64,000 nucleotides of DNA from an uncultured Pelagibacteraceae bacterium (lineage in GTDB: Bacteria > Pseudomonadota > Alphaproteobacteria > Pelagibacterales > Pelagibacteraceae): assembly GCA_902593845.1 (NCBI GenBank), contig CACJJV010000005.1, forward strand, positions 1 through 64,000. Reading direction: 5' to 3'. Shown here in pieces: positions 1 through 13,677 of this stretch; the first letter of the stretch is position 1; the number at the start of each line of letters is the position of its first letter. The notes under the pieces are model-generated. The model saw only the letters and a program-made list of their open reading frames with translations, did no database searches and had not been told where the DNA came from. A program made the translations under genes and the position numbers.

Positions 1-662
1 TTAGAAGAAAAGTTTTAGAACTTGAAAAAGAAGGAGTTATAACACGTAATAAAAAAAAAATCATTATTGATAGGAAAGCATTTCCATTTGTCAAACCTGA
101 TAACCAAATTAAATTTTCATCAAAATATATTCACTTAGTTTCACAAGCTTTAAATAAAGATAAAGTTTATTCAAAAAAACTTGATCAAAAAACTATTGAA
201 AATATAATAAAAAAAAAATTTTCATTATCATGGAGATGGTTTTACAGAATGCAGATACCTTTAATTATAGGATATCATAAATTTTTTCAAGATTTGACAA
301 CATTTCACATTTGGGGGACAGTTTGTATGAATCAGGTTTTAAATGTTTCAAGCCAATTAAATTCAGATAGTGAAAAATCTTCATTAGATTACTTTGCTAC
401 AAATAACATTCTCATAGAAAATCTTGGTACAAATGCTGGAATAAGTGCTATGTCAATTTCTGATATGACAAAAATTCCTCGAGCAACAATAATTAGAAAG
501 TGTAAATATTTAATAAAAGAAGATTTGATAAAGTTAAATGAAAAAAAACAATATGTACTAACTTCTATGAATTTTAGAAAAATTTTACCTTATCAAACAG
601 AAATTTTTAAATACAAAGCTAAATTTATTCGTAAAGTTTTAAATCTACTTGTAATATCTTAA
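1..662 (+). CDS. Winged-helix transcriptional regulator, 5' end outside window
   Basis: The frame is open from base 3 to the TAA at 660-662, so the gene starts upstream of the window and at least 219 residues are visible. An ATG at 249 lies inside this frame and is not the likely start. The first visible residues (RRKVLELEKEGVI) look like the recognition helix and wing of one winged helix-turn-helix. A second one lies near the C-terminus, where S-I-S-D-M-T-K-I-P-R-A-T-I-I-R-K-C-K-Y-L is followed by a wing ending in KKQYVLT. The middle is mostly helical with aromatic residues and has no recognisable ligand domain. A DNA-binding regulator with two wHTH units is inferred; the target is unknown. 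It precedes the transporter gene by 44 bases. Confidence 0.6.
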   Translation, partial: RRKVLELEKEGVITRNKKKIIIDRKAFPFVKPDNQIKFSSKYIHLVSQALNKDKVYSKKLDQKTIENIIKKKFSLSWRWFYRMQIPLIIGYHKFFQDLTTFHIWGTVCMNQVLNVSSQLNSDSEKSSLDYFATNNILIENLGTNAGISAMSISDMTKIPRATIIRKCKYLIKEDLIKLNEKKQYVLTSMNFRKILPYQTEIFKYKAKFIRKVLNLLVIS

Positions 663-706: not shown

Positions 707-1558
707 ATGGGTATAGTAACAACAATAGCGCCATTTGCGTTAGCATTAATTATGTTAGGGCTTGGTGCGTCATTAACAGTAAAAGATTTCACAAGAGTTT
801 TTCAGCATCCAAAAGAATTTTTTGTTGGTTTAATTTGTCAATTAGTTGTTCTTCCAATCATAAGTTATGTATTGATAATTATTTTAAAGACTCCCGTAGA
901 GTTAGCGTTAGGGGTAATGTTGATTGCAGCTGCGCCTGGTGGTGTAACTTCAAATGTACTAACTAAATTTGCAGATGGCGATGTTGCACTTTCTATTTCT
1001 CTTACTGCTTTTACTAGTTTAATAAGTATTGTTTCAGTTCCTTATATAGTTTTTTTATCAATTGATATATTTGACATTACTTATGTTGAAAAAGAAGTTT
1101 CAATGCTTGGTATATCATTGAAAATGTTTTTTGTAGTTACTGTGCCAGTAATAATTGGAATGATTATTAGAAAATTTTTTAGTGATTTTATAGAAAATAA
1201 TATGAAAATTATTGAGAAAATATCTATAGGATTATTTTCAATTGTTTTTATTGCTATCTATATTCAAGAATGGGATAGTATTATAATGTTCCTTTCTACA
1301 GCAGGAACTATTGCTTTAGTTCTAAATATTTCCATGATGATTATAGGTTTCTATGTTGCTAAATTTTTCGCATCAGGTGTTGCTCAACAAAGATGTATAT
1401 CTCTCGAATGCGGATTACAAAATGGGACATTAGCTGTTTTTGTAGGAACTCAATTGTTTGGTCAAAATATGACTTATATGGTTCCAACTGCAGCATATGC
1501 TTTGATAATGATGATGACCTCTGTTCTTTTTGTTTTTTTCTTAAGAAGAAAAACTTAA
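707..1558 (+). CDS. Bile acid:sodium symporter (BASS/SBF) family transporter
   Basis: This inner-membrane protein of 283 residues has about nine hydrophobic segments and matches the SBF/BASS family in length and in landmarks. These include an N-terminal LGLGASLTVKDF segment, a G-V-T-S-N-V-L-T-K-F-A-D-G-D motif in the crossover region, and a late segment beginning with the family-typical E-C-G-L-Q-N-G. The family couples sodium entry to uptake of organic anions such as bile acids, pantoate or 2-oxoacids. The substrate here cannot be read from sequence. The stop codon interlocks with that of the convergent dehydrogenase (4-base overlap). Its position beside the sulfonate region makes an organic acid or sulfonate substrate thinkable, but that is only inference. 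Confidence 0.8.
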   Translation: MGIVTTIAPFALALIMLGLGASLTVKDFTRVFQHPKEFFVGLICQLVVLPIISYVLIIILKTPVELALGVMLIAAAPGGVTSNVLTKFADGDVALSISLTAFTSLISIVSVPYIVFLSIDIFDITYVEKEVSMLGISLKMFFVVTVPVIIGMIIRKFFSDFIENNMKIIEKISIGLFSIVFIAIYIQEWDSIIMFLSTAGTIALVLNISMMIIGFYVAKFFASGVAQQRCISLECGLQNGTLAVFVGTQLFGQNMTYMVPTAAYALIMMMTSVLFVFFLRRKT

Positions 1559-3999
1559 TTATTTTTAAAATTAGTTTGTTTTAAGGGTTTGTTGATTAAT
1601 TCAATAGGATATTTTTTTTTCTCTATTTCAATAAATAAATCTTTTTTGTGAAGTTCATCATTTGAAATATCGTTATTGATATAACTAAATGTTAAATTTT
1701 TCCTAAAATTAAAAGAATAATTACCAGATGTTGATCTACCTATAATTTTATTTTCTAAATAAATAGGCTCATCATGGAGCAATAATGGCTCACCTGGTTT
1801 GCTATCTTTTAGAGTAAACATTGCAAATCTACTTTTAATTTTTTCCTTTTTGATTTTTTCTAAAGCTTTTTTGCCAATAAATTCATCCTCTTTTTTAGAG
1901 CTTATTGTGAAAGATAAACCTGCTTGATATTGATTTTCTTCTGGTGAAATGTCGTGTCCCCAATGTAGAAATCCACTTTCCATTCGCATAATATCCATGG
2001 CATGCATACCGCAATTCGATAGGTTAAAATCTTTTCCTTTATTAATCAATAATTCATAAATTTTTTTAGCATTTTCAGATTTAACATATAATTCGTAGCC
2101 TAATTCACCAACGTATGACAATCTTTGAGTCCAAATTTTAATTCCTTCAATAGTGATATATTTTGCCGTACTAAATCTAAAATTATCATTTTCAAAATTA
2201 TCTTTTGAAATTGATTTCATTAAAGCTCTACTTTTTGGTCCAAAAACTCCAAAAACACAATAATCATCAGTAACGTCTTTTAACTTAAGATCTTTTGCAA
2301 GGTGTTTGTTTATATGAAATTTATCTCTTTCTCGCGTAGCTGCAGAGCTAATTATTCTAAAATGATCTTTATTAATACAAACAACTGTTAGATCTGTTTC
2401 AATACCACCATCGGGATTTAACATATGTGTATAAACACATTTTCCAGCCTCATTTTTAATATTAGCAGTACAAATTTTTTGTAATTCCCTGTGAGCCTGA
2501 TTAGATTTTATCTCAAATTTTGAAAAAGGAGTTAAATCAAATAAACCAACATTCTTTATAGTGTTATTTGTTTCATATTCTGCTGAAGGGTACCAATTTT
2601 GGTAATTATAACTGTATTCATACTCTGTTTTTTCTCCATCTAAAGCAAACCACATTGGTCTTTCATATCCTCCTGAAACACCAAAACACGCTCCGAAACT
2701 TTTTAATTCATCATGATATGGAAGTGTTTTTATATTCCTGGAGGTTTTATGTTGTTTAAAAGGCCAATGCATTCCATATAAATCTCCTAACGATTCTGTA
2801 ATTCTTTTTTTAATAAAACCTAGCTCAGAGTGAAATTTTTGAAATCTTTTTATGTCATAACAGAAAATATCTTCATTAATATGTCCATTGATTAACCACT
2901 CAGCTGTAACTTTACCAACCCCTCCTCCACTTCCAATCCCAATACTATTTAAACCACAGCATACAAAGAAGTTTTTTACCTCCGGCACTTCTCCAAGCAA
3001 TGTATTTGTATCTGGAGTAAATGACTCGGGTCCAGAAAAAAATTTTCTAATTCCTGCTGTTTCTAAAACTGGAAATCTTTTTATTGCAGTGGCTAAATAA
3101 GGCTCAAAATGCTCAAAATTTTCTTGAAATTCTCCAAAGGAAAAATTCTCTGGAACTTTATTGGTTTTATCCCATGCTGGGATTGATTGAGATTCAAAAA
3201 TTCCAACTAATATTTTTCCAGCATCTTCTTTTATATAAGTTCTGTTATCAAAATCTCTTATCACTGGTAAAGTTTTAGAAAGATTTTCAATCGGTTCAGT
3301 AATAATATAGAAGTGTTCTGCTGGATAAAGAGGAATGCTTACTCCAGCTTTTTCTCCAATTTGGCGTGACCACATTCCTGATGCTAAAACTATATACTCA
3401 CAATCAATTTTTTGACCATTTACTTTTACACCAGAAATTTTTCCATCTTTATTTATGATCTCATCAACGGGAGTTTTTTCAAAAATCTTTGCCCCTTCCA
3501 TTCTTGCTGCTTTTGCTAACATATGTGTTACTCCAGATGGGTCTGCAGCTCCATCGCCTGGCATCAAAATCCCTCCTAAAACTTCCTCAGTATTTACAAT
3601 TGGATAATCTTTCTTAATTTGTTCTTTATCTAAAATTCTAACATCAACATCAAAAAGTTGTGCAGTTGTTGCTTGTCTTTGAAGCTCTTGCCATCTACCT
3701 TTATTCTCAGCAATTGAAAGTGCACCGTTTAATCTTAATCCTGCTGAATGATCAACTTTCTTTTCAAGTTCTTTATAAAGATCCAAAGTATATTTTCTAA
3801 TTTTGGTAATTGCTGCTGATGGACCTAATTGACTTACTAATCCAGCTGCATGCCAAGTCGTACCTGATGTTAACTGATCTCTTTCTAAAAGGATTGTATC
3901 TTTCCAACCAAATTTAGCTAAATGATAAGCAACTGAACAACCAACTACTCCACCTCCGATAACAACAACTTTGGTGCTACTTGGAAGTTTTTTTTCCAT
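1555..3999 (-). CDS. FAD-dependent dimethylglycine/sarcosine dehydrogenase-like protein with GcvT domain
   Basis: The 814 residues have the architecture of DMGDH and sarcosine dehydrogenase. An N-terminal DAO-type FAD domain carries GGGVVG at about residues 15-20. The T-T-W-H-A-A-G motif places His50 where this family attaches FAD covalently. A C-terminal aminomethyltransferase (GcvT) half spans about 430-800 and would move the one-carbon unit to tetrahydrofolate. The length is normal for the family. The gene is last in a tight leftward operon after the aminotransferase and alanine dehydrogenase (gap of 4 bases). The family oxidises N-methyl groups on small amines. Dimethylglycine or sarcosine is the default substrate, but the operon context raises N-methyltaurine as an alternative (inference). 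Confidence 0.85.
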   Translation of the reverse strand: MEKKLPSSTKVVVIGGGVVGCSVAYHLAKFGWKDTILLERDQLTSGTTWHAAGLVSQLGPSAAITKIRKYTLDLYKELEKKVDHSAGLRLNGALSIAENKGRWQELQRQATTAQLFDVDVRILDKEQIKKDYPIVNTEEVLGGILMPGDGAADPSGVTHMLAKAARMEGAKIFEKTPVDEIINKDGKISGVKVNGQKIDCEYIVLASGMWSRQIGEKAGVSIPLYPAEHFYIITEPIENLSKTLPVIRDFDNRTYIKEDAGKILVGIFESQSIPAWDKTNKVPENFSFGEFQENFEHFEPYLATAIKRFPVLETAGIRKFFSGPESFTPDTNTLLGEVPEVKNFFVCCGLNSIGIGSGGGVGKVTAEWLINGHINEDIFCYDIKRFQKFHSELGFIKKRITESLGDLYGMHWPFKQHKTSRNIKTLPYHDELKSFGACFGVSGGYERPMWFALDGEKTEYEYSYNYQNWYPSAEYETNNTIKNVGLFDLTPFSKFEIKSNQAHRELQKICTANIKNEAGKCVYTHMLNPDGGIETDLTVVCINKDHFRIISSAATRERDKFHINKHLAKDLKLKDVTDDYCVFGVFGPKSRALMKSISKDNFENDNFRFSTAKYITIEGIKIWTQRLSYVGELGYELYVKSENAKKIYELLINKGKDFNLSNCGMHAMDIMRMESGFLHWGHDISPEENQYQAGLSFTISSKKEDEFIGKKALEKIKKEKIKSRFAMFTLKDSKPGEPLLLHDEPIYLENKIIGRSTSGNYSFNFRKNLTFSYINNDISNDELHKKDLFIEIEKKKYPIELINKPLKQTNFKNN

Positions 4000-4003
4000 T
4001 TAA

Positions 4004-5122
4004 TTAATTTTTGATTGCATCTCCTGGGTTAACATATTCATGTCCAAATACATCTGCAACAGCTTTATAAGTCACATGACCCTTATGAACATTTAATCCT
4101 GCTAAAAAGTTTTTATCTTCACTAAGAGCTTTTTGATAACCTCTATTAGCTAATTTGACCAAATAAGGAAGTGTTGCTTTGTTTAATGCGATAGTTGATG
4201 TTCTAGGAACCCCTCCTGGCATGTTAGCTACACAATAATGAACAACATTATCAACTATAAAAGTTGGATCATTAAAGGTCGTCGGTTTACTTGTTTCTAC
4301 ACAGCCACCTTGATCAATTGCAACGTCAACAATAACTGAGCCTCTTTTCATTAATTTTAACATATCTTTAGTGACTAATTTAGGCGCCTCTGCTCCAGGA
4401 ATTAAAACTCCTCCTACTATTAAATCTGCTTCAGCTACTAACTTTTTTAAATCTATCTTATCACTTTGTTCTGGAATAATTTTATCACCAAACATTTCAA
4501 CTAATTGTTTTAACCTTGCCTCTGATTTGTCTACAACATGAACTTTTGCTTTCATGCCAGTTGCTATAGTTGCAGCATTTTCTCCTACAACACCTCCACC
4601 TAAAATTAAAACGTTAGCTGGTTCACCACCAGGAGCTCCACCCAATAATACTCCTCTACCTTTTTGGTTTTTTTCTAAACAATGTGCTCCAGCTTGAACT
4701 GACATACGTCCTGCTACAGCACTCATTGGTGCAAGTAAAGGAAGCCTTCCATTATCATCAGTAATGGTTTCATAAGCTATATTAATACTTTTTGATTTTA
4801 CCAAACCCTCTGTCAATTCTTTTGCAGCCGCCAGATGTAAATAAGTGTATACGATTTGATTTTCTTTAATCATTTCAACCTCAACTTTTTGAGGTTCTTT
4901 AACTTTAACAATTATTTCAGCATCATTAAAAATATCAGTGGCTTTTTCAATAATTTTAGCACCGGCATTTTTGTACTGATCATTGTCGAAACCTGCTTCA
5001 AAGCCTCCATTGTTTTCTACTAATACTTCATGTCCTTCAGAGACAAGAGTTTTTACACTATCTGGTGTTAAGCCTATTCTATTTTCTTGAGGTTTAATTT
5101 CTTTAGGTACGCCAATTCTCAT
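4004..5122 (-). CDS. ald: Alanine dehydrogenase
   Basis: This cytoplasmic enzyme of 372 residues deaminates L-alanine to pyruvate and ammonia with NAD. The N-terminus MRIGVPKEIKPQENRI is diagnostic of the family. The expected substrate residues sit in V-K-V-K-E-P-Q and Y-L-H-L-A-A, and the NAD fold shows G-G-G-V-V-G near residue 175. The length is full. It is the middle gene of a leftward operon, 9 bases after the class III aminotransferase. In bacteria that use taurine, Ald regenerates pyruvate for taurine:pyruvate aminotransferase and releases the amino group as ammonium. That role fits well here. Confidence 0.95.
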   Translation of the reverse strand: MRIGVPKEIKPQENRIGLTPDSVKTLVSEGHEVLVENNGGFEAGFDNDQYKNAGAKIIEKATDIFNDAEIIVKVKEPQKVEVEMIKENQIVYTYLHLAAAKELTEGLVKSKSINIAYETITDDNGRLPLLAPMSAVAGRMSVQAGAHCLEKNQKGRGVLLGGAPGGEPANVLILGGGVVGENAATIATGMKAKVHVVDKSEARLKQLVEMFGDKIIPEQSDKIDLKKLVAEADLIVGGVLIPGAEAPKLVTKDMLKLMKRGSVIVDVAIDQGGCVETSKPTTFNDPTFIVDNVVHYCVANMPGGVPRTSTIALNKATLPYLVKLANRGYQKALSEDKNFLAGLNVHKGHVTYKAVADVFGHEYVNPGDAIKN

Positions 5123-5131
5123 TAACGAAAT

Positions 5132-6478
5132 TTAATTCTTTTTACTTTTTGCGTAATTAGTTATTCCGGTTCTTAATTTTTCAATAATTTCATCAATATG
5201 TTTTTTTTCACAAATAAACATCGGTGCTATAATTAAACAATCACCTGTAGCTTTGAAATTTACTCCAGCATCATAACAATGTTTAAAAGTAGCTAAGCCT
5301 GCTTTACCAGGTCTACCATCAGTTTTAATATCTATACCGCCCATCATTCCATAGCCTCTAATGTTATCCACTACATCAATGTCTTTTAATGAAAATAGTC
5401 CTTCTTGGAAGTAAGGAGCTAGTTCTTTTGCTCTATTAAAAATATCTTCTTTTTCAAAAATATCTTGAACAGCTAATGCTGCTGCAACAGAAACTGGTAT
5501 TCCTGAATAAGTATAACCATGAAATAATTCTATCGCACCTTTTGGAGAATTATCCATAACCGCATCATAAATCTCTTCTTTACAAGCAACCACACCAAAT
5601 GGAACTATCCCATTAGTTGTTGCTTTAGCCATAGTCATTATGTCAGGTGTTACACCAAACTCTTGAGCTCCAAAAGCTGAACCAGTTCTTCCCCATCCAG
5701 TAATAACTTCATCAAAAATCAAAAGAATTTTATGTTTGTCACAAAGTTCTCTTAATCTTTGTAAATATCCAACTGGTGGAACTAAAGTTCCTGTTGAACC
5801 AGCAATTGGCTCAACAATGCAGGCTGCAATATTTTCTGAACCAAAGTTAGTACAAATTCTTTCTAGGTCATTAGCAATTTCAGCGCCTGTTTCAGGTTGG
5901 CCTGATATAAATTTATGTTCATCTAAATGTGTATGTCTCATATGAACAACACCTGGCATCAAAACACTTGCATAAGCTTTGACATTATTAATCATACCAC
6001 CTACTGATGTTGCTCCAATATTCATCCCATGATACGCACGTTCTCTTCCAACAAATCTAAATCTTTGTCCCTCGCCTCTTGCTTTATGGTAAGCAATACT
6101 AATTTTGATCGCTGTTTCAACTGCAGTAGATCCACAAATTGTATAAAAAATTTTATTTAAATTTCCTGGTGTATGTTTTGAAATTCTAGTTGCTAATTCA
6201 AAAGATCCACCAAATCCTTGTTGGAAGGGTTGACAATAATCTAAAGTTTGTAATTGATTTGTTATTGCTTCAATAATTTCTTTTCTACCATGTCCTAAAG
6301 GATTGCAGAATAATCCTGAGCTAGCATCAATTTGAGTTTTACCTTGGTGATTTTTTAAATATACACCTTTTGCCTCCACTATAAGTTTTGGATTTTCTTT
6401 AAAATCTTTATTAGATGTAAACGGCATCCAATGTTCATTTAAAGAATTAGGTACAGATGTTCTTTTTTCTGAGCTCAT
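5132..6478 (-). CDS. tpa: Class III aminotransferase, probable taurine--pyruvate aminotransferase
   Basis: The 448-residue PLP enzyme is of the omega-amino acid:pyruvate type. Motifs seen are L-I-F-D-E-V-I-T-G-W-G-R-T-G for cofactor contact and M-T-M-A-K-A-T-T-N-G with the Schiff-base lysine. The class III fold and length are complete. The substrate is assigned from context: it is divergent from a taurine ABC transporter and co-transcribed with alanine dehydrogenase, the known pairing for taurine conversion to sulfoacetaldehyde with alanine as co-product. Beta-alanine, hypotaurine or another omega-amino acid remain possible. It is the first gene of the leftward operon and would be read from the 176-base divergent region. 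Confidence 0.8.
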   Translation of the reverse strand: MSSEKRTSVPNSLNEHWMPFTSNKDFKENPKLIVEAKGVYLKNHQGKTQIDASSGLFCNPLGHGRKEIIEAITNQLQTLDYCQPFQQGFGGSFELATRISKHTPGNLNKIFYTICGSTAVETAIKISIAYHKARGEGQRFRFVGRERAYHGMNIGATSVGGMINNVKAYASVLMPGVVHMRHTHLDEHKFISGQPETGAEIANDLERICTNFGSENIAACIVEPIAGSTGTLVPPVGYLQRLRELCDKHKILLIFDEVITGWGRTGSAFGAQEFGVTPDIMTMAKATTNGIVPFGVVACKEEIYDAVMDNSPKGAIELFHGYTYSGIPVSVAAALAVQDIFEKEDIFNRAKELAPYFQEGLFSLKDIDVVDNIRGYGMMGGIDIKTDGRPGKAGLATFKHCYDAGVNFKATGDCLIIAPMFICEKKHIDEIIEKLRTGITNYAKSKKN

Positions 6479-6551
6479 ATTAAAATTTTATAATTGGTTA
6501 ATTAATGAATCCTTAGACTAATTAAGTCCAATAAACCACCAAAATAATTGT

Positions 6552-6568
6552 CACAACTTTAAGTTGTG
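6552..6568. promoter_or_regulatory. 17-bp perfect palindrome, candidate operator in the tpa/tauA divergent region
   Basis: CACAACTT-T-AAGTTGTG has two perfect 8-base arms around one base. It sits 74 bases upstream of the aminotransferase start and 87 bases upstream of the tauA start. It is the only strong inverted repeat in the 6479-6654 gap. Its position, between divergent operons of one pathway, is typical for a regulator that controls both. No regulator gene lies next to it in this window. Confidence 0.5.
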
Positions 6569-6588
6569 TAACTAGAATGAGCATTTTT

Positions 6589-6616
6589 TTGTTTTACATA
6601 TAGGTCAATTTAATCT
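6589..6616 (+). promoter_or_regulatory. Candidate sigma-70 promoter for tauA
   Basis: TTGTTT at 6589-6594 and TAATCT at 6611-6616 are separated by 16 bases. This would place the transcript start about 30 bases before the tauA ATG. The palindrome at 6552-6568 ends 20 bases upstream of the -35 box, a position more typical of an activator than of a repressor for this side. Promoter boxes are easily found by chance in such AT-rich DNA, so this is tentative. Confidence 0.3.
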
Positions 6617-6654
6617 TAAAATTGAAACATATAAATAAACAAGGAAGAGGAAAA

Positions 6655-7596
6655 ATGAAAAAAATAATTAGTTTTATTCTTGGATGTTTTGTAGCTCTTA
6701 ATCTTTCAATTTCAGTTGCTAATTCTGCAGCTAATGAAGTTAGAGTTGCATACTTCTTAGAGTGGCCAAGCCCAAATCTAGAGGATATGATGAAGAAAAA
6801 CTTCGCTAAAGCTCTAGGGGTTCCTGTTAAGTGGACAAACTTTACTAACGGTGGTGCAATGACTGATGCTATGTTAGCGGGTGATATTGATATCTCTTAC
6901 TCTCAAGGTTTAGTTCCATTCATTAATGCTGTTAAATCAAAAGCTCCTATCAAACTTGTAGATGTTGCTATGGAATACGGAATGGGTGGTACAACATGTG
7001 TAACATCTAATGCTTCAGGTATAACAAAAGCTAACGCTACAGAACTTGAAGGTAAAAAAGTTGCTGTTCCACTAGGTACAATGGCTGAATACGTTTTTGA
7101 TGAAAGTATGAAAGTTGTAGGTGCGGACAGAAAAAAAATGGATATCATTCAAATGGACCCTGAAGAAGGCGCTGCTGCTTTGGTAAGTGGTGATGTTGTA
7201 ATGGCATGTTTATTCGGTGGTAACTCAATTAAAGCTGCAACTGCAGTTGGATCTAGATTACTTACAGTTCAAGAGGCTAGAGACGCAGGTATCCTAGGTA
7301 TTGATATCACTTCAGTAACTACTAAGTTTATGAAGGAAAATCCAGGTATGCTAAGAACTTTTATTGAAGTAACTCATGAGGCTAATGCAAGATATAGAGC
7401 TGGTAAAAGCGATATGAATGCAATGTCAAAAGCTTCTGAAATGAAAGTTGCTGATATGAAAGAAACTTTAAGTGGCTTTAAATTTCTAACACCAGAGGAA
7501 ACTAAACAATCTATGGAAAGTGGAAATCTTGATGCATTCTTAAAAGGAATGGGAACACCAAGAGGAAACGTAGATACTAGTTTTTTACCTTTATAA
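6655..7596 (+). CDS. tauA: Taurine ABC transporter substrate-binding protein
   Basis: This periplasmic binding protein of 313 residues delivers taurine or a related sulfonate to the TauBC importer. A signal peptide (MKKIISFILGCFVALNLS, cleaved near A-N-S-A-A) is followed by the NMT1/TauA-type fold, including G-A-M-T-D-A-M-L-A-G-D-I-D-I and a C-terminal F-L-T-P-E-E segment. A TTG at 6622 is in frame, but the ATG at 6655 is chosen because A-G-G-A-A-G-A-G-G lies just upstream and the signal peptide begins there. A hairpin follows the gene, as is usual for highly expressed binding proteins. Taurine specificity follows from family resemblance and context, not from visible ligand residues. Confidence 0.9.
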   Translation: MKKIISFILGCFVALNLSISVANSAANEVRVAYFLEWPSPNLEDMMKKNFAKALGVPVKWTNFTNGGAMTDAMLAGDIDISYSQGLVPFINAVKSKAPIKLVDVAMEYGMGGTTCVTSNASGITKANATELEGKKVAVPLGTMAEYVFDESMKVVGADRKKMDIIQMDPEEGAAALVSGDVVMACLFGGNSIKAATAVGSRLLTVQEARDAGILGIDITSVTTKFMKENPGMLRTFIEVTHEANARYRAGKSDMNAMSKASEMKVADMKETLSGFKFLTPEETKQSMESGNLDAFLKGMGTPRGNVDTSFLPL

Positions 7597-7617
7597 TCTA
7601 AGGGTAATTTAAATTTT

Positions 7618-7657
7618 AATAGGCGCCAATTGTAATAAATTGGTGCCTATTTTTTTA
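7618..7657 (+). terminator. Hairpin with T-run after tauA (terminator or attenuator)
   Basis: A 14-bp stem (arms 7618-7631 and 7638-7651, one G-T pair) closes a 6-base loop and runs into T7. It lies between tauA and tauB on the same strand. It would let most transcripts stop after the binding protein and allow lower read-through to the ATPase and permease, or it would stabilise the tauA mRNA 3' end. Confidence 0.85.
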
Positions 7658-7684
7658 TTAAAAATTCAAATATAAAGTCTCTTT

Positions 7685-8482
7685 ATGAGTGATTTAATTT
7701 CACAAAATCTAAACATGATTTTTAAAACTCCTAAAGGAGAAACAGTTCACGCTTTAAAAGATTTAAATTTTACTCTCAAAAAAGGAGAGCTTCTTACTGT
7801 TCTTGGGCCGTCTGGTTGCGGAAAAACTACATTGCTTAACATTACTGCAGGATTTATTAGACCAACTTCAGGAAGTATTACTCTCAATAATAAAGAAATA
7901 GATGGACCAGGAGTTGAAAGGGGAATGGTTTTTCAACAAGGTGCTTTATTTGAATGGCTAACAGTTGCTGAGAATGTCAACTTTGGATTAAGAATGAAAA
8001 AAGAAGATCCAATTAAAACTCAAAAAAAAGTTGATGAATGGTTAGAGATTGTTGGATTAAAAGGTTTTGGAAACACTCCAACTTATCAATTATCTGGAGG
8101 AATGCAGCAGAGAGTTGCCCTTGCAAGATGTCTAATCAACAACCCAGATTTGATTTTAATGGATGAACCATTAGGAGCCCTTGATGCTCTTACAAGAGAA
8201 AAAATGCAGTCCCTAGTTTTAAAAATTTGGAAAGAAACTGGTAAAACTATTATTCTTATTACTCACTCAGTTGAAGAGGCCTTGCTTCTAGGTGAAAGAT
8301 TATATGTGATGGCTCCAAGACCAGGAAGAATACATAAAGAATATAATCTGCCATTCGCTTCAATGGGTTTAAAAGAAGATTTAAGAGAAATCAAAAAAAA
8401 TAAAGAGTTTTCACAAAAACGAGAAGAAATCCTTGAAATGATCTGGAACATGGAAGAGGAAATAATGGGGAAAGATAATTAA
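7685..8482 (+). CDS. tauB: Taurine ABC transporter ATP-binding protein
   Basis: A cytoplasmic ABC ATPase of 265 residues that powers the importer. Walker A is G-P-S-G-C-G-K-T-T, the signature is L-S-G-G-M-Q-Q-R-V-A-L-A-R, Walker B is L-I-L-M-D-E-P, and the H-loop is I-T-H-S. It resembles the nitrate/sulfonate/taurine class throughout, including M-A-P-R-P-G-R after the H-loop. The stop at 8480-8482 directly abuts the ATG of the permease, so the two are translationally coupled. Confidence 0.93.
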   Translation: MSDLISQNLNMIFKTPKGETVHALKDLNFTLKKGELLTVLGPSGCGKTTLLNITAGFIRPTSGSITLNNKEIDGPGVERGMVFQQGALFEWLTVAENVNFGLRMKKEDPIKTQKKVDEWLEIVGLKGFGNTPTYQLSGGMQQRVALARCLINNPDLILMDEPLGALDALTREKMQSLVLKIWKETGKTIILITHSVEEALLLGERLYVMAPRPGRIHKEYNLPFASMGLKEDLREIKKNKEFSQKREEILEMIWNMEEEIMGKDN

Positions 8483-10408
8483 ATGTTAACTCAAATATTA
8501 ACTTTTCTAATATTCTTTGCCGTAGTCGGCTGTATTCTTTACGGAAGAAGATTGATAAAGACTGAAAAAGTAGATGCTGTATTTGGAAATCCAGAGAGAG
8601 CATTAGGTGGTACTCACTGGGTAATTGTTGGAAGTAGTTTTTTACTTTTAATTTGGCTCTATTATTCTTGGGATATTGCTAAAGGATTTTATCCAAAATC
8701 TGCCAACGAGTTATGCCAAGTTGCGAAAGTTAATGACTCTTTGCTTGGATTAAAATATCAATTTCCAATTGAAGAAAGAGAGTTCAAAAGTACTTCACAA
8801 ATCAAAAAAGAGAATAAAAATTTAAAATTAATTCAAAATGAGATTCAAAATTCTGAGGAACTAAATAGCCAACAAAAAACGATACTAATTAGTTATATAA
8901 GTAAAACTAATCAACTAATCCCTTTACTTACAAATGAGGATTTGTTGGAGATTGAGACTCAACAAAAAATAGATGATATCACTGGAAAAATTAATCTATT
9001 AACTGAAAATTTCCAAAAACCTGATTATCCATTTGAAAGTGAGCAAGAACTCAATGAGCGACTTAAGGCAGTAGCAGAAGAAGGTGGTTGGGGTATAACT
9101 AAGGTAGATGCAGGCTCAGGTTCTATTGAAAATACATTAGAAGTGCCTTTAGTGCCTGCAACGTATAGAGGTTTAAAGTTTCACACTGCCGCTCAAGAAT
9201 TAAATTTAATAAGTGATGAATTTTTTAAGTTAAGAAATCATAATCCTCAATTCAAAAATAAGATTAAAGAGCTAAAAGAGGAAATCAAATCTTATAGAAA
9301 AAGTTTAAGTGATAGTGAGGAAGTGGCTTCAACATACGCAAAAAATATTGTTAAGATCGCTAGAAGAATAGAATTTGCAAGTATTTACCCTCCTAATGCA
9401 TTAGATAAGATGCAGACAGCAATTGTTAAATTTGATAATGCTCAAAAAAAAGAACAAGGTGGACTGAGATTAATTGATATTTTTTTATTTCCTGCAGGAA
9501 CTATTGTTGCCAGTGGTCCAAGTTGTTCAGAACAGGGATCAGGTAGGTGGTTGCCTAAACCATCTGATACCTTCAATAAATTTATATTAATGTCAAAACC
9601 CAGTGTAGGGTATAAAGATATTCCTTTATTGTGGATACAAATGGTTGATGTGAGCAAAATGATTGGCTTTATTTTGCCAGACTGGATTGCAGATATTTTA
9701 CCAGGTGAGTATCCTGTTCATAGTAAAGATGGAATAGTAAAACAAAACTTCAAAGGTGGAGTTTTAAAAATTGTAACTGGTGATTTTAATTTATTTAAAG
9801 TGCCTGTTCCTTATGGTCATATTTGGGATTCTTTTTTAAGAGTTTTTCTTGGTTTAGTTTTTGGCATATTAATTGGTGTCCCTCTTGGTCTATTTATGGG
9901 TTTAAATAGATTTGCAAAAGGTTTTTTTGATCCTTTGATTGAGCTTTATAGACCTGTTCCTCCTCTTGCATGGGCTCCTCTTATAATTTCGGTCTTAGGA
10001 ATTGATAATACTGGAAAAGTATTTTTACTATTTATGGTTTCTTTATCTATAATGATTATTTCTGCAAGAGCAGGTGCATCGGGAACACAATTATCAAAAA
10101 TTCATGCAGCTCACTCATTAGGAGCATCAAAAAGACAAATATTAAGACATGTTATTTTTCCAAACTCATTACCAGAGATACTTACTGGTATAAGAGTTGC
10201 AGTAGGTATGTGTTGGGGAACCTTGGTAGCTGCAGAATTTTTAGCTGGTACTACTGGTATTGGTTTTGTTGAAAATGTAGCCAAGAAATATTTTCAATAT
10301 GAGGTGATTTGGATAACAATTTTTATCATGGGAATGCTTGGATTATTATTTGATATAACACTTAGAAAAATAATTGATAAAACAATTCCATGGCGTGGAA
10401 AAGGTTAA
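8483..10408 (+). CDS. tauC: Taurine ABC transporter permease with large N-terminal extension
   Basis: The 641 residues contain a normal TauC-like permease at the C-terminal end, about residues 355-641. It has P-K-P-S-D-T-F at its start, the E-L-Y-R-P-V-P-P-L-A-W-A-P-L segment, and the EAA-type loop A-A-H-S-L-G-A-S-K-R-Q-I. Ahead of it are roughly 350 extra residues. Two membrane segments lie near 4-22 and 46-66, followed by a charged region with coiled-coil character around 100-190 and 225-310. Ordinary TauC proteins have about 275 residues. The whole reading frame is continuous, with no sign of a frameshift or internal start, so this looks like a real extended permease. Function of the extra part is unknown. 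Confidence 0.88.
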   Translation: MLTQILTFLIFFAVVGCILYGRRLIKTEKVDAVFGNPERALGGTHWVIVGSSFLLLIWLYYSWDIAKGFYPKSANELCQVAKVNDSLLGLKYQFPIEEREFKSTSQIKKENKNLKLIQNEIQNSEELNSQQKTILISYISKTNQLIPLLTNEDLLEIETQQKIDDITGKINLLTENFQKPDYPFESEQELNERLKAVAEEGGWGITKVDAGSGSIENTLEVPLVPATYRGLKFHTAAQELNLISDEFFKLRNHNPQFKNKIKELKEEIKSYRKSLSDSEEVASTYAKNIVKIARRIEFASIYPPNALDKMQTAIVKFDNAQKKEQGGLRLIDIFLFPAGTIVASGPSCSEQGSGRWLPKPSDTFNKFILMSKPSVGYKDIPLLWIQMVDVSKMIGFILPDWIADILPGEYPVHSKDGIVKQNFKGGVLKIVTGDFNLFKVPVPYGHIWDSFLRVFLGLVFGILIGVPLGLFMGLNRFAKGFFDPLIELYRPVPPLAWAPLIISVLGIDNTGKVFLLFMVSLSIMIISARAGASGTQLSKIHAAHSLGASKRQILRHVIFPNSLPEILTGIRVAVGMCWGTLVAAEFLAGTTGIGFVENVAKKYFQYEVIWITIFIMGMLGLLFDITLRKIIDKTIPWRGKG

Positions 10409-10409
10409 G

Positions 10410-11414
10410 TTGAAAGCTCCAATACTAAAAAAAGAAGTTATCAAAATATTTAAAAAATATGGTCTAAGTCAAGACCACGCTAAGATTTCTGCTAATGCTT
10501 TGATCAACGCAGAGCTAGTCGGTGCTTTTGGTCATGGTATTTCAAGATTAAAAATGTATTGTGATCGAATATCAAAAAAAGTAATTAATCCAAAACCCAA
10601 AATAAAGATTAAAAAGATATCACAATCAATTTCACATATTGATGCCGATAATAGTATAGGGTTTGTTGCAGCTGATATAGCTATTAAAAAGGCTATTTCA
10701 AATGCCAAAAAAACTGGAATAGGTTTAGTTGCTGTTAGAAACAGTGGCCATTATGGTCTCTCTGGTTATTACGCAGAACAAGCCGTAAAAAAAAATTTGG
10801 TTACCATGATATATACCAACGGTCCACCAGCTGTGGCTCCGCATGGTGCTTTTAAAAGCTTATTTGGCACTAATCCAGTTTGTTTCGGAACTCCTAGTGG
10901 CTCAAAAATACCTTTTATTTTTGACTCATCAATCTCCATGATCAATAGAGGAAAGATTAGATTTGCATCAAAAAATAATCAGAAACTACCATTGGGTGTT
11001 GCTTTAGATAAGTTTGGTAAACCAACAATCGATGCAAACAAAGCTCTTAAAGGTGTTCAGTTACCTATTGCAGGATTTAGAGGTTCAGGATTAGCATGGA
11101 TGGTTGATATATTGAGTGGTGTTTTAACTGGTGGTAATCATGCTGGCAGAGTTAAAGATCCTTTTGAAGATTTTACCGGACCACAAAATATAGGGCATTT
11201 ATTTATCACATTTAAAACAAATTTATTTGTAAAAGATTATAATCAAAGGATTAAAGATAATATCAAAAGAGTAAAACGACTACCTAAAGTTAAAGGAATA
11301 AAAGAAATAATGTATCCAGGGCAAAATAAATATAAAAGATATAAAATGAATTTAAAAAAAGAAATTAAAATGTCTAAAATTATTCAAAAAGAATTTGAAA
11401 TTTTAAAAAACTAA
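10410..11414 (+). CDS. Ldh_2-family 2-hydroxyacid dehydrogenase (malate/(R)-sulfolactate dehydrogenase-like)
   Basis: This is an NAD(P)-dependent oxidoreductase of the malate/L-sulfolactate/ureidoglycolate dehydrogenase family. Motifs include H-G-I-S-R-L near the start, R-N-S-G-H-Y-G-L-S-G-Y-Y and the conserved late segment G-F-R-G-S-G-L-A-W-M-V-D. The frame is open from 10374, but TTG at 10410 is the likely start because it follows the tauC stop by one base and has G-G-A-A-A-A-G-G upstream, giving 334 residues. Within this operon a ComC-like role (sulfopyruvate and (R)-sulfolactate interconversion) is attractive, but malate or lactate cannot be excluded from sequence alone. Confidence 0.75.
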   Translation: MKAPILKKEVIKIFKKYGLSQDHAKISANALINAELVGAFGHGISRLKMYCDRISKKVINPKPKIKIKKISQSISHIDADNSIGFVAADIAIKKAISNAKKTGIGLVAVRNSGHYGLSGYYAEQAVKKNLVTMIYTNGPPAVAPHGAFKSLFGTNPVCFGTPSGSKIPFIFDSSISMINRGKIRFASKNNQKLPLGVALDKFGKPTIDANKALKGVQLPIAGFRGSGLAWMVDILSGVLTGGNHAGRVKDPFEDFTGPQNIGHLFITFKTNLFVKDYNQRIKDNIKRVKRLPKVKGIKEIMYPGQNKYKRYKMNLKKEIKMSKIIQKEFEILKN

Positions 11415-11416
11415 TC

Positions 11417-12328
11417 ATGCTTTCAAATAAAGAAATTATTGTTCCAAATAATCTATTAAATGCTGCTCTAAAAAATAAAGGAGTGAAAGCTGGAATTGTT
11501 AATGCTGGGAAACCATTGCCAATGTTATCTGTTCAAGATGCGGTCAAAGAAAATTTAATTGATCCAATTTTTATAGGAGATGAAAAAGAAATTCTAAAGT
11601 GTGCAGCAGACTTAAAGTGGGATATTTCTAAATATGAAATTATTAATGAACCAGTTGAAAATAATACTGCAGGTATAGCTGCAAAACTAGCTAGTGAAGG
11701 AAAAATAAGAATTATAGTCAAAGGACATATACATACAGATATTTTAATGAAAGAGGTTCTAAAAAGAGAATATAACTTGTTGGGAAAAACAAGGTTAAGT
11801 CATATCTGGCATATGACGTTAGAAAAAGATGATAAACCTCTTATAATTACTGATGGTGCTTTAAATGTGTTACCAAATGTAAAAACCAAAATGCATATCT
11901 TAAAAAATGTAATTAATTTTTCTCATAGAATTGGAATTGAAAAACCAAAAATTGCAGTGTTGTCTGCCACAGAAGAAGTTTTAGATAGTGTTCCAAGTTC
12001 TAAAGAAGCTGAAGAAATTACAAATCTTGCAAAAAAAGAAAATTTAAATGCCGATGTATTTGGGCCTTTGGCTTTTGATAATAGTATATCAAAAAAATCT
12101 GCAGCTATTAAAGGTATTAAAAATGATGTTGCGGGAATTGCTGATGTTTTATTAGTGCCTAGTGTTGAGACAGGTAATGCATTGGTTAAGATGTTAATAT
12201 ATTTTAGTGGTGCATGTGCTGCAGGAGTAGTTGTAGGTGGTAAAGTACCTGTGGTAATTACTAGCCGCTCTGATGAAGCGCCTGCTAGACTAGCATCAAT
12301 AGCTGCAGCTGTTGTTGCACTAGATTAA
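11417..12328 (+). CDS. Phosphate acetyl/butyryltransferase family protein
   Basis: The 303 residues match the PTA/PTB fold, including V-K-G-H-I-H-T-D, I-I-T-D-G-A-L-N-V-L-P and the C-terminal S-R-S-D-E-A-P-A-R-L-A-S-I. The family exchanges CoA and phosphate on acyl groups. In sulfonate degraders, Pta converts acetyl phosphate, made by sulfoacetaldehyde acetyltransferase (Xsc), into acetyl-CoA, and the gene often sits with xsc. No xsc is present in this window, so an xsc elsewhere would be needed for that reading. The gene starts 2 bases after the upstream dehydrogenase. Confidence 0.8.
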   Translation: MLSNKEIIVPNNLLNAALKNKGVKAGIVNAGKPLPMLSVQDAVKENLIDPIFIGDEKEILKCAADLKWDISKYEIINEPVENNTAGIAAKLASEGKIRIIVKGHIHTDILMKEVLKREYNLLGKTRLSHIWHMTLEKDDKPLIITDGALNVLPNVKTKMHILKNVINFSHRIGIEKPKIAVLSATEEVLDSVPSSKEAEEITNLAKKENLNADVFGPLAFDNSISKKSAAIKGIKNDVAGIADVLLVPSVETGNALVKMLIYFSGACAAGVVVGGKVPVVITSRSDEAPARLASIAAAVVALD

Positions 12329-12391
12329 ATGTTTGATTGCAATAAAATTAAATTTATCTTAAATAATTCATCAATTATAAAAATGTATTAA
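12329..12391 (+). other. Possible 20-codon ORF bridging the acyltransferase gene and hpsN-like gene
   Basis: An ATG directly abuts the stop of the upstream gene. The 20-residue frame ends with a TAA that overlaps the ATG of the next gene by one base (TAATG). The gap is thus exactly filled by one tiny ORF. It could serve to keep ribosomes moving into the downstream gene. It has no clear Shine-Dalgarno and could be chance, since ATG and TAA are common here. Confidence 0.2.
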
Positions 12392-13677
12392 TGGCTATTA
12401 CTTATTTAAAAAAGTCTCCAAAAACTTCGTCCACTGACGATAATAAGACAACAGGGATAGTTCAAGATTTATTAAAAAATATCGAAAAAACAAAAGAACA
12501 AGGCTGCATCGATTTAACTAAAAAATTCGACAAGTATGATGGGGAAATCATAGTATCAAAAGACAAAATTGAGGAAATTAAAAAAACCTTAGATCAAAAA
12601 ACAAAAGATGATATTCAATTTTCATTTGAAAGGGTTAGAAAATTTGCTGAAGCACAACTTAAAAATTATGGACAAGATTTTGAAGTAGAACTTTCTGATG
12701 GTTTGTATGCAGGTCAAAAATTAGTGCCTGTAAATACAGCAGGTTGCTACATCCCAGGTGGAAGATACGCTCATATTGCATCTGCTGTAATGAGTGTAAC
12801 TACAGCAAAAGTTGCTGGAGTAAAAAATATTATTGCGTGTAGTCCTCCCAAAGAAGGTGTTGGTGCCCACCCTACTATTGTATACACAGCTGATCTTTGC
12901 GGTGCAGATGTTATTTTAAATTTAGGAGGAGTTCCTGCAATTGCAGCAATGACTAATGGATTATTCAAAAATCCCCCTGCAGATATAATTGTAGGACCAG
13001 GAAATCAATTTGTAGCTGAGGCTAAAAGAATTTTATATGGAAAAGTTGGTATTGATTTGTTTGCAGGACCAACTGAAATTGGAATTATAGCAGATGCTAA
13101 AGCTGATCCAGAAATTGTTGCGGTAGATTTAGTAGGACAAGCTGAGCATGGATATAACTCACCATGTTGGCTTTATACAACTAGTAAAGAATTAGCCGAA
13201 AAAGTAATGAAAAGAGTTCCAGAATTAATCGCAGAACTTCCAGAAGTTCCAAGAACAAGTGCTGAAGCAGCGTGGAGAGATTATGGTGAAGTAATACTTT
13301 GTGACACTGATGAAGAGATAGTTAAAATTAGTGACGAATATGCACCTGAACATTTAGAAGTCCAGACCGAAAATTTAGAATGGTTTCATGAAAGATTAAC
13401 AAATTATGGTTCTTTGTTTGTGGGTGAAGAAACAACTGTTGCATATGGCGACAAATGTTCTGGTACAAATCATATCTTACCAACTAAAGGTGCAGGAAGA
13501 TACACGGGTGGATTATTTGTTGGAAAATTTATTAAAACTTTAAGCTTTCAAAGAATGACAAAAGAGTCTACTAAATTAGTTGGTGCTGCTGCAGCTAGAA
13601 TTTCTAGATACGAGGGAATGGAAGCTCATGCAAGAACAGGAGATGTAAGACTTAGAAAATATGGTTTTTCTAATTAA
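12391..13677 (+). CDS. hpsN: Histidinol-dehydrogenase-family enzyme, probable sulfopropanediol dehydrogenase (HpsN-like)
   Basis: This 428-residue NAD-dependent dehydrogenase keeps the HisD fold and its metal and catalytic residues: Q-A-E-H, Y-A-P-E-H-L-E and M-E-A-H-A near the end. The segments R-Y-T-G-G-L-F-V-G-K-F and Y-G-D-K-C-S-G-T-N-H resemble the HpsN branch, which oxidises 2,3-dihydroxypropane-1-sulfonate to sulfolactate. The neighbourhood supports this: it ends a sulfonate uptake operon with a sulfolactate-type dehydrogenase, with no histidine gene nearby. The family-level call is firm. The substrate is inference, and a true histidinol dehydrogenase remains an alternative. Its stop interlocks with msrB. 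Confidence 0.7.
   Translation: MAITYLKKSPKTSSTDDNKTTGIVQDLLKNIEKTKEQGCIDLTKKFDKYDGEIIVSKDKIEEIKKTLDQKTKDDIQFSFERVRKFAEAQLKNYGQDFEVELSDGLYAGQKLVPVNTAGCYIPGGRYAHIASAVMSVTTAKVAGVKNIIACSPPKEGVGAHPTIVYTADLCGADVILNLGGVPAIAAMTNGLFKNPPADIIVGPGNQFVAEAKRILYGKVGIDLFAGPTEIGIIADAKADPEIVAVDLVGQAEHGYNSPCWLYTTSKELAEKVMKRVPELIAELPEVPRTSAEAAWRDYGEVILCDTDEEIVKISDEYAPEHLEVQTENLEWFHERLTNYGSLFVGEETTVAYGDKCSGTNHILPTKGAGRYTGGLFVGKFIKTLSFQRMTKESTKLVGAAAARISRYEGMEAHARTGDVRLRKYGFSN

Follow-up and report, generated by a model that had tools for sequence, protein, structure and literature searches.

Two parts of sulfonate metabolism in SAR11 bacteria are shown in print: strain HTCC1062 is reported to take up taurine (PMC3090418), and the HpsN dehydrogenase of strain HTCC1002 has been assayed and reported to oxidise R-2,3-dihydroxypropane-1-sulfonate (R-DHPS), the catalytic efficiency on histidinol being only 2.2-fold lower (PMC11131964). 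Peptides of SAR11 Tpa, Xsc and AprAB are already reported from Antarctic metaproteomes, and the same source states that ATP sulfurylase is missing from most SAR11 and that sulfate excretion on taurine has not been demonstrated for cultured SAR11 (PMC10356861). Here we describe a stretch of 64,000 nucleotides (the window; positions 1 to 64,000 of contig C5) from a SAR11 genome, G000 (1.06 Mb, 24 contigs, 88% complete), in which a cluster of taurine and R-DHPS genes is joined to an enzyme resembling dimethylglycine dehydrogenase (DMGDH). This island is, with good support, ordinary SAR11 sulfonate metabolism. The DMGDH-like enzyme appears to be an accessory N-demethylase of that cluster, most likely removing N-methyl from a methylated taurine by oxidation, a reading of the sequence comparisons to which we give a probability of about 0.42.

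The demethylase gene lies on the minus strand (1555..3999) and is the ortholog of SAR11_1221 of HTCC1062. Its product has the Pfam architecture DAO-FAO_M-GCV_T-GCV_T_C, as in dimethylglycine dehydrogenase, and so combines a flavin adenine dinucleotide (FAD) enzyme with a folate part. On the same strand stand the alanine dehydrogenase gene ald (4004..5122; TIGR00518, 483 bits against a cut-off of 392) and a gene for a class-III omega-aminotransferase (5132..6478). The gaps within this trio are only 4 and 9 bases, and the three genes are therefore very probably carried on one transcript. We examined gene order in SAR11 on the best 80 of at least 327 loci with DMGDH-like relatives, and in this set Ald adjoins the DMGDH-like gene in 75 of 80. 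Four of the remaining five loci start no more than 1.8 kb from a contig end on the Ald side; the fifth (L064) has a 10 kb flank without Ald.

The preliminary description of this DNA had joined the DMGDH-like gene to taurine catabolism, and that tie is real. We surveyed 60 Pelagibacteraceae genomes that are at least 85% complete, scoring relatives of the window enzyme (the tau-type) at 50% identity or more, Xsc above its model cut-off, BHMT in its long form of about 350 aa, and dimethylglycine (DMG)-type paralogs at E 1e-100 or better. Tau-type enzymes were counted in 25 genomes (a 431-aa fragment in G048 was left out), tauA in 31, Xsc in 32, long-form BHMT in 14 and DMG-type paralogs in 30. 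The taurine gene tauA was found in 24 of the 25 genomes with a tau-type enzyme and in 7 of the 35 without one (P 1.6e-9; this and the other P values given here ignore shared ancestry). Xsc follows the same pattern (24/25 against 8/35), and the ties to long-form BHMT (11/25 against 3/35) and to DMG-type paralogs (18/25 against 12/35) are looser. A larger draw of 248 genomes, 187 of them from genus g1, gave tauA in 155 of 169 genomes with the tau-type enzyme and 9 of 18 without, although the g1 set is the weaker one because genes that are linked would drop out jointly wherever a contig is missing.

Physical linkage supports the same tie. Twenty-four genomes carry both tauA and a tau-type gene, and in 17 of them the two are adjacent, an arrangement spanning four genera and 53-96% identity (L131, L157, L163, L165, L166 and others). 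In one of the other seven the genes lie 12.8 kb apart; in G012, G018 and G030 they share a contig but are far from each other, and in G040, G054 and G058 they are on different contigs. All seven keep both demethylase and tauA despite the lack of adjacency. The linkage looks ancestral in the family, since the unlinked L129 copy nests with the linked L147 copy in the tree. The accessory demethylase is a real, conserved but optional part of the cluster.

The enzyme itself belongs to a branch other than its closest solved relatives would suggest. A PDB search placed mitochondrial DMGDH first (461 bits), with Arthrobacter DMG oxidase at 375 bits; the same mitochondrial enzyme gives 610, 646 and 676 bits with three further paralog types of SAR11. 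No fusion of DAO and GcvT named sarcosine dehydrogenase was among the matches listed in the PDB searches of this family. Our family tree (93 rows, quick method, midpoint root, with no PDB row and no verified sarcosine dehydrogenase among the rows) splits 31 rows holding the DMG-type SAR11 paralogs from 62 rows holding the window enzyme, with support of 100. Twenty of the 62 rows, those of the tau-linked type, group as a clade (support 100, stem 0.87); deeper joins are less sure, the tree program having raised a long-branch warning. Both its branch and its lower score led us to reject the window enzyme as a DMG dehydrogenase. One SAR11 DMG-type clade stands directly beside the long-form BHMT gene in L136, L138, L140 and L151, and it is accordingly the better candidate there for the betaine-pathway DMG dehydrogenase. 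The source genome also holds an 842-aa frame (L014:6964-9492) with a C-terminal GCV_T domain and, by eye, no DAO in its N-terminal half, to all appearance an unusual folate-domain fusion.

Residues near the flavin distinguish the tau-type clade from its branch. Numbered on the window enzyme and surveyed over the 93 tree rows, every row has the FAD-binding His50 and also His229, and the latter aligns with His225 of Arthrobacter DMG oxidase, which is catalytic. Just past the FAD histidine, an arginine within residues 55-60 is present in 41 of 42 branch relatives and in 0 of 20 members of the tau-type clade, all 20 of which have Gly59. Arg68 is likewise found in 20/20 tau-type rows, where 36 of the 42 branch relatives have alanine. 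Our split criterion picked out 14 positions, 10 of them outside the FAD domain. The FAD-loop arginine as a sarcosine-type feature was derived in this analysis and not from print, and the tau-type rows lack it throughout. These differences suggest a pocket that is altered on its substrate side in the tau-type clade.

Outside SAR11 the clade is rare. Among 386 alphaproteobacterial genomes drawn, family f127 supplied the sole non-SAR11 members that we placed in it, from two genomes at 58-60% identity. Xsc is encoded in both, and 37 of 40 f127 genomes score above the Xsc cut-off. On rhizobial plasmids (L175, Rhizobium; L238, Sinorhizobium) both demethylase types are immediately followed by an omega-aminotransferase 45-46% identical to that of the window. 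Such an order makes sense if the product of demethylation is an omega-amino acid, taurine or beta-alanine for example, and not glycine. In Sinorhizobium fredii NGR234 (L238:4077-10320) the DMG-type demethylase, the sarcosine-type demethylase and the omega-aminotransferase stand in a row, and L175 has the same trio together with an ABC transporter and electron transfer flavoprotein genes. A 38% homolog downstream of xsc in Sinorhizobium meliloti sits behind its own regulator, and we did not count it as linkage. On a Cereibacter sphaeroides plasmid (L245:13139-14692) a gene of the trimethylamine methyltransferase family comes after the phosphate acyltransferase of an xsc cluster; its product could act on trimethyltaurine. 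N-mono-, di- and trimethyltaurine are reported from the seaweed Galaxaura rugosa (PMC10538540).

A number of observations weigh against a taurine-related role. Shared ancestry accounts for part of the co-occurrence of tau-type enzymes with tauA: when genus g4 is taken by itself, tauA occurs in 4/4 genomes with the enzyme and 6/14 without (P 0.09). In the g1 set, 14 of 169 tau-type genomes lack tauA and 9 of 18 genomes without the enzyme have it. The larger draw also includes ten genomes of another SAR11 family, f2, that carry a homolog (about 1e-208), unplaced in the tree, and no tauA match. In HTCC1062 the gene SAR11_1221 lies some 384 kb from tauA. In G056, the one tau-type genome without tauA, the stretch read (L154) encodes TauB, TauC, Ald and the demethylase, and both TauA and the aminotransferase are missing from it. 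Outside SAR11, TauA was not matched in any of 45 loci (L172-L216, the two f127 loci included), some of whose flanks end at a contig edge. The enzyme might instead be an unrelated one-carbon housekeeping protein, its gene a hitchhiker in a variable region with no bearing on sulfonate metabolism. The gene does move independently, as the seven genomes without adjacency show, and a published listing places the HTCC1062 copy with a hypervariable region (PMC2217521). Nevertheless, four genera retain the linkage, at identities as low as 53%, and none of the seven non-adjacent genomes has lost tauA. We regard a hitchhiker as very improbable.

Other contrary evidence concerns the substrate. We found no assay of the DMGDH-like enzyme in the literature searched, and the bacterial N-methyltaurine dehydrogenase that is known yields methylamine and sulfoacetaldehyde instead of demethylating its substrate. 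The arginine that the tau-type clade has lost is also missing from the DMG-type (0/31 rows); because DMG-type enzymes lack it too, its loss alone does not name a substrate. By tree position our guess at the inherited substrate would be sarcosine, and the enzyme may be an ordinary sarcosine dehydrogenase that yields glycine and methylene-tetrahydrofolate and finds the taurine locus merely handy. Frames around the ortholog in G018 (L129, named by eye) match the gene list of SAR11_1215 to SAR11_1221, published as sulfotransferase, pilin, globin, phosphatase, pilin, unknown and sarcosine dehydrogenase (PMC2217521), and another source gives SAR11_1221 and SAR11_1253 the names sarcosine dehydrogenase and DMG dehydrogenase (PMC3160333). 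Members of the window's branch stand in tandem with DMG-type enzymes in 7 of the 45 non-SAR11 loci (L175, L180, L181, L183, L186, L205, L215). Frames were listed for L181, L186, L205 and L215 (the L181 list is poor because its DNA is G+C-rich), and in the last three of these four a methyltransferase of the MttB family adjoins the pair. Later genes of betaine demethylation are described as often lying near mtgBCD (PMC12478193). Demethylation of DMG and then of sarcosine fits both the tandem pairs and the MttB neighbours, and we therefore call this branch sarcosine-dehydrogenase-like. The preliminary description had named, as counting against N-methyltaurine, a protein that groups with and acts only on dimethylglycine or sarcosine, in genes that do not respond to sulfonates; the protein does not group with the DMG-type, but its place in a sarcosine-dehydrogenase-like branch amounts to half of that condition. 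Some observations make plain sarcosine oxidation less likely in our judgement, though a serious contender. Long-form BHMT is missing from 14 of 25 tau-type genomes, and the four tau-type genomes of g4 have no DMG-type paralog (0/4 against 5/14 without the tau-type, P 0.28), so that the two types never meet there; these are drafts, in which absence is not proof. The near-invariant arginine of the branch is lost throughout the tau-type clade. The source genome also has two further candidates for sarcosine oxidation, GCV_T frames of 1005 and 1008 aa that are putatively SoxA-like, judging by length. Some other N-methyl amino acid would fit the neighbouring genes in a different way: N-methyl-beta-alanine could feed the aminotransferase, which fits the beta-alanine-type model AptA and has a 49% identical relative beside dihydropyrimidinase in a pyrimidine-to-beta-alanine setting (L237), or N-methylalanine could feed Ald, whose gene the demethylase adjoins. 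The branch member in Rhizobium L175, which stands beside an AptA-like aminotransferase and an ABC transporter whose substrate is unstated, agrees with this as well. However, aminotransferase and Ald accompany the TauA-like gene in 22 of 22 SAR11 tauA loci read, and Xsc is present in 30 of 31 tauA genomes, and we consider this alternative less probable than sarcosine, though still a live one. Conversion of N-methyltaurine to taurine and methylene-folate seems to us the best single reading, tentative as it is. No publication on bacterial N-methyltaurine breakdown was found by title or abstract opening in the literature searched, and searches on N-methyltaurine, dimethyltaurine, SAR11 taurine, xsc or DHPS and the locus tags turned up, in the text seen, no proposal of a methylated-taurine role for the SAR11 enzyme.

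The taurine genes of the plus strand are recognisable, although they score low against their models. The TauA-like periplasmic binding protein (6622..7596) matches the SsuA/TauA family below cut-off; the TauA taurine model is its second-best match and below cut-off (85 bits against 304), and it matches the taurine-binding protein 6ssy in the PDB (E 3.2e-12) and is 88% identical to a protein of G018, which we infer to be HTCC1062. TauB-like (7685..8482) and TauC-like (8483..10408, 641 aa) proteins both score best to taurine models, below their cut-offs: the best NCBIfam match of the first is the taurine ATP-binding subunit (272 bits, cut-off 357), and the second reaches 179 bits against 342 for TauC. 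The TauC-like permease domain is confined to residues 465-628, with about 440 residues ahead of the domain, and gene spacing in L223 and L231 is consistent with the same long TauC. The aminotransferase passes the AptA omega-aminotransferase model (NF052567, 566 bits against 500), in a comparison that held no Tpa reference. Seven annotated plasmid xsc clusters carry an NTF2-like protein and an FAD oxidoreductase before xsc, a pair that we take to be the taurine dehydrogenase TauXY, and neither these seven nor an Azospirillum cluster supplied a Tpa reference near xsc. Genomic context suggests that the window enzyme is a taurine:pyruvate aminotransferase. Two g4 genomes that lack the demethylase have tauA and the aminotransferase gene separated by about 2.6 kb of other DNA (L231:4613-7266, L232:9967-12620).

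The preliminary description had called the last gene of the cluster (12391..13677, plus strand) HpsN-like, and the protein is a genuine member of the HpsN family of R-DHPS 3-dehydrogenases. It scores 533 bits to the solved HpsN 8v35 and 252 to the best histidinol dehydrogenase in the PDB, and it has the GRYAH motif that is given as HpsN-specific (PMC11382572). It also passes the general hisD model (429 bits, cut-off 244), and a second Histidinol_dh gene elsewhere in the genome scores higher on that family (492 against 441 bits). The window HpsN is 94% identical to that of G018 at the same gene place; HTCC1002, the source of the assayed enzyme, is presumably nearly the same strain as HTCC1062. 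HpsN was seen only in genus-g1 clusters, and two g4 stretches that extend beyond pta (L232, L233) have none. The upstream Ldh_2-family dehydrogenase (10374..11414, plus strand; Pfam Ldh_2, 347 bits) has an uncertain start codon, its frame overlapping tauC. It had been labelled ComC-like, a name that we set aside as that of a sulfolactate enzyme: the protein falls far under the cut-off of the L-sulfolactate dehydrogenase model NF040650 (231 bits against 500), and we call it a possible sulfolactate dehydrogenase. A phosphate acyltransferase of the Pta/Ptb family (11417..12328, plus strand; PF01515, 116 bits; NF006045, 286 bits, cut-off 282) lies between the two.

The rest of the pathway is encoded elsewhere in the genome. 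The search for xsc that had been suggested found it on contig C9 (TIGR03457, 967 bits, cut-off 676), and together with the genuine HpsN this bears out the view of the region as a sulfonate island. Beside Xsc are a 94-aa SuyA-like frame, a 389-aa UxaA-type SuyB-like frame, YeiH-like and TauE-like frames, AprA (988 bits, cut-off 642) and AprB (188 bits, cut-off 136). We assigned the Suy and TauE names, which are putative, from size and gene order; against NCBIfam the SuyB-like protein is only a distant relative of galactarate dehydratase, and the TauE-like protein has no match at 1e-40. ComDE need not be invoked, because cleavage of R-sulfolactate into pyruvate and sulfite could fall to the SuyAB-like pair. 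Both blocks recur in G018, as HpsN-Pta-Ldh_2-TauCBA-aminotransferase-Ald (L223) and Xsc-SuyAB-like-TauE-like-AprAB (L224).

The sequences themselves establish gene content, order, family, orthology and co-occurrence; the scheme that we propose from them further infers the substrates of the aminotransferase and the demethylase. Taurine would enter through TauABC. The aminotransferase would pass its amino group to pyruvate, and Ald would return the alanine to pyruvate with release of ammonia. Sulfoacetaldehyde would go to Xsc, and the acetyl phosphate formed would become acetyl-CoA through Pta. HpsN would oxidise R-DHPS to R-sulfolactate, cleavable by the SuyAB-like pair next to Xsc, and the neighbouring AprAB could oxidise the sulfite. 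The substrate of the DMGDH-like enzyme would be a methylated taurine, N-methyltaurine above all; the enzyme would oxidise its N-methyl group, hand the methylene unit to tetrahydrofolate, and leave free taurine for the aminotransferase of its own operon.

All nine open reading frames of the region 1555-13677 lie exactly where the preliminary description had placed them, in position and strand, and Pfam and NCBIfam support their broad names. Two frames absent from its gene list precede them. A BASS-family sodium symporter (707..1558, plus strand; Pfam SBF, 128 bits) is convergent with the DMGDH-like gene, and a short frame at 249..662 on the plus strand may encode a helix-turn-helix-like protein, a label of our own. 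The BASS gene was matched in 74 of the 80 SAR11 loci, and the short frame stands beside it in most of them. The pair is found at the demethylase end in most loci and in the gap between Ldh_2 and Pta in others. In L226, L227 and L234 the tau cluster encloses BASS, and the demethylase is 12.8 kb off or elsewhere; in L133, a genome whose tau genes lie elsewhere, BASS adjoins the demethylase. We regard the symporter as a candidate sulfonate carrier. An Rfam search of the whole window gave 0 matches, and a tRNA search none.

If the proposed role is right, a single small operon would turn a sulfonate osmolyte of algae into folate one-carbon units, ammonia, sulfite and acetyl-CoA, and methylated taurines would be a new class of algal compounds in the SAR11 diet. 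SAR11 is the most abundant marine heterotroph, dominant in the surface ocean, and depends on external reduced sulfur and glycine; here its sulfonate and one-carbon metabolism would be joined. The folate-linked route would be distinct from the one that releases methylamine, and SAR11_1221 would be misnamed.

Set against known systems, the window has the same genes in the same order as the taurine dissimilation pathway of HTCC1062 (TauABC, Tpa, Ald, Xsc, AprAB), except that the demethylase, remote from tauA in that strain, stands here inside the aminotransferase-Ald operon. With other HpsN systems (Cupriavidus 8v35 and 8wwe, SAR11 CuHpsN) it shares family, the GRYAH motif and the SAR11 gene place, but its HpsN is joined to a taurine-type transporter. 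In SAR11, hpsO, hpsP and hpsN are reported not to lie in one operon, and CuHpsN to favour R-DHPS over histidinol only 2.2-fold (PMC11131964). The demethylase has the architecture, branch, FAD-binding histidine and His229 of a sarcosine dehydrogenase of the DAO-GcvT fusion kind, and differs in its taurine-gene partners and in the FAD-loop arginine missing from all 20 clade members. Mitochondrial DMGDH (4p9s, 5l46) and Arthrobacter DMG oxidase (1pj5) belong to the same family and combine oxidation with folate trapping, but it is other SAR11 paralogs, not the window enzyme, that are DMG-type and score far higher against the mitochondrial enzyme. Our tentative proposal is that, in SAR11, an enzyme of the sarcosine-dehydrogenase-like kind was recruited to demethylate N-methylated taurines by oxidation. 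The N-methyltaurine dehydrogenase of Alcaligenes and Paracoccus would then share its substrate; whereas the known reaction releases methylamine, the enzyme proposed here would give the one-carbon unit to folate and leave taurine.

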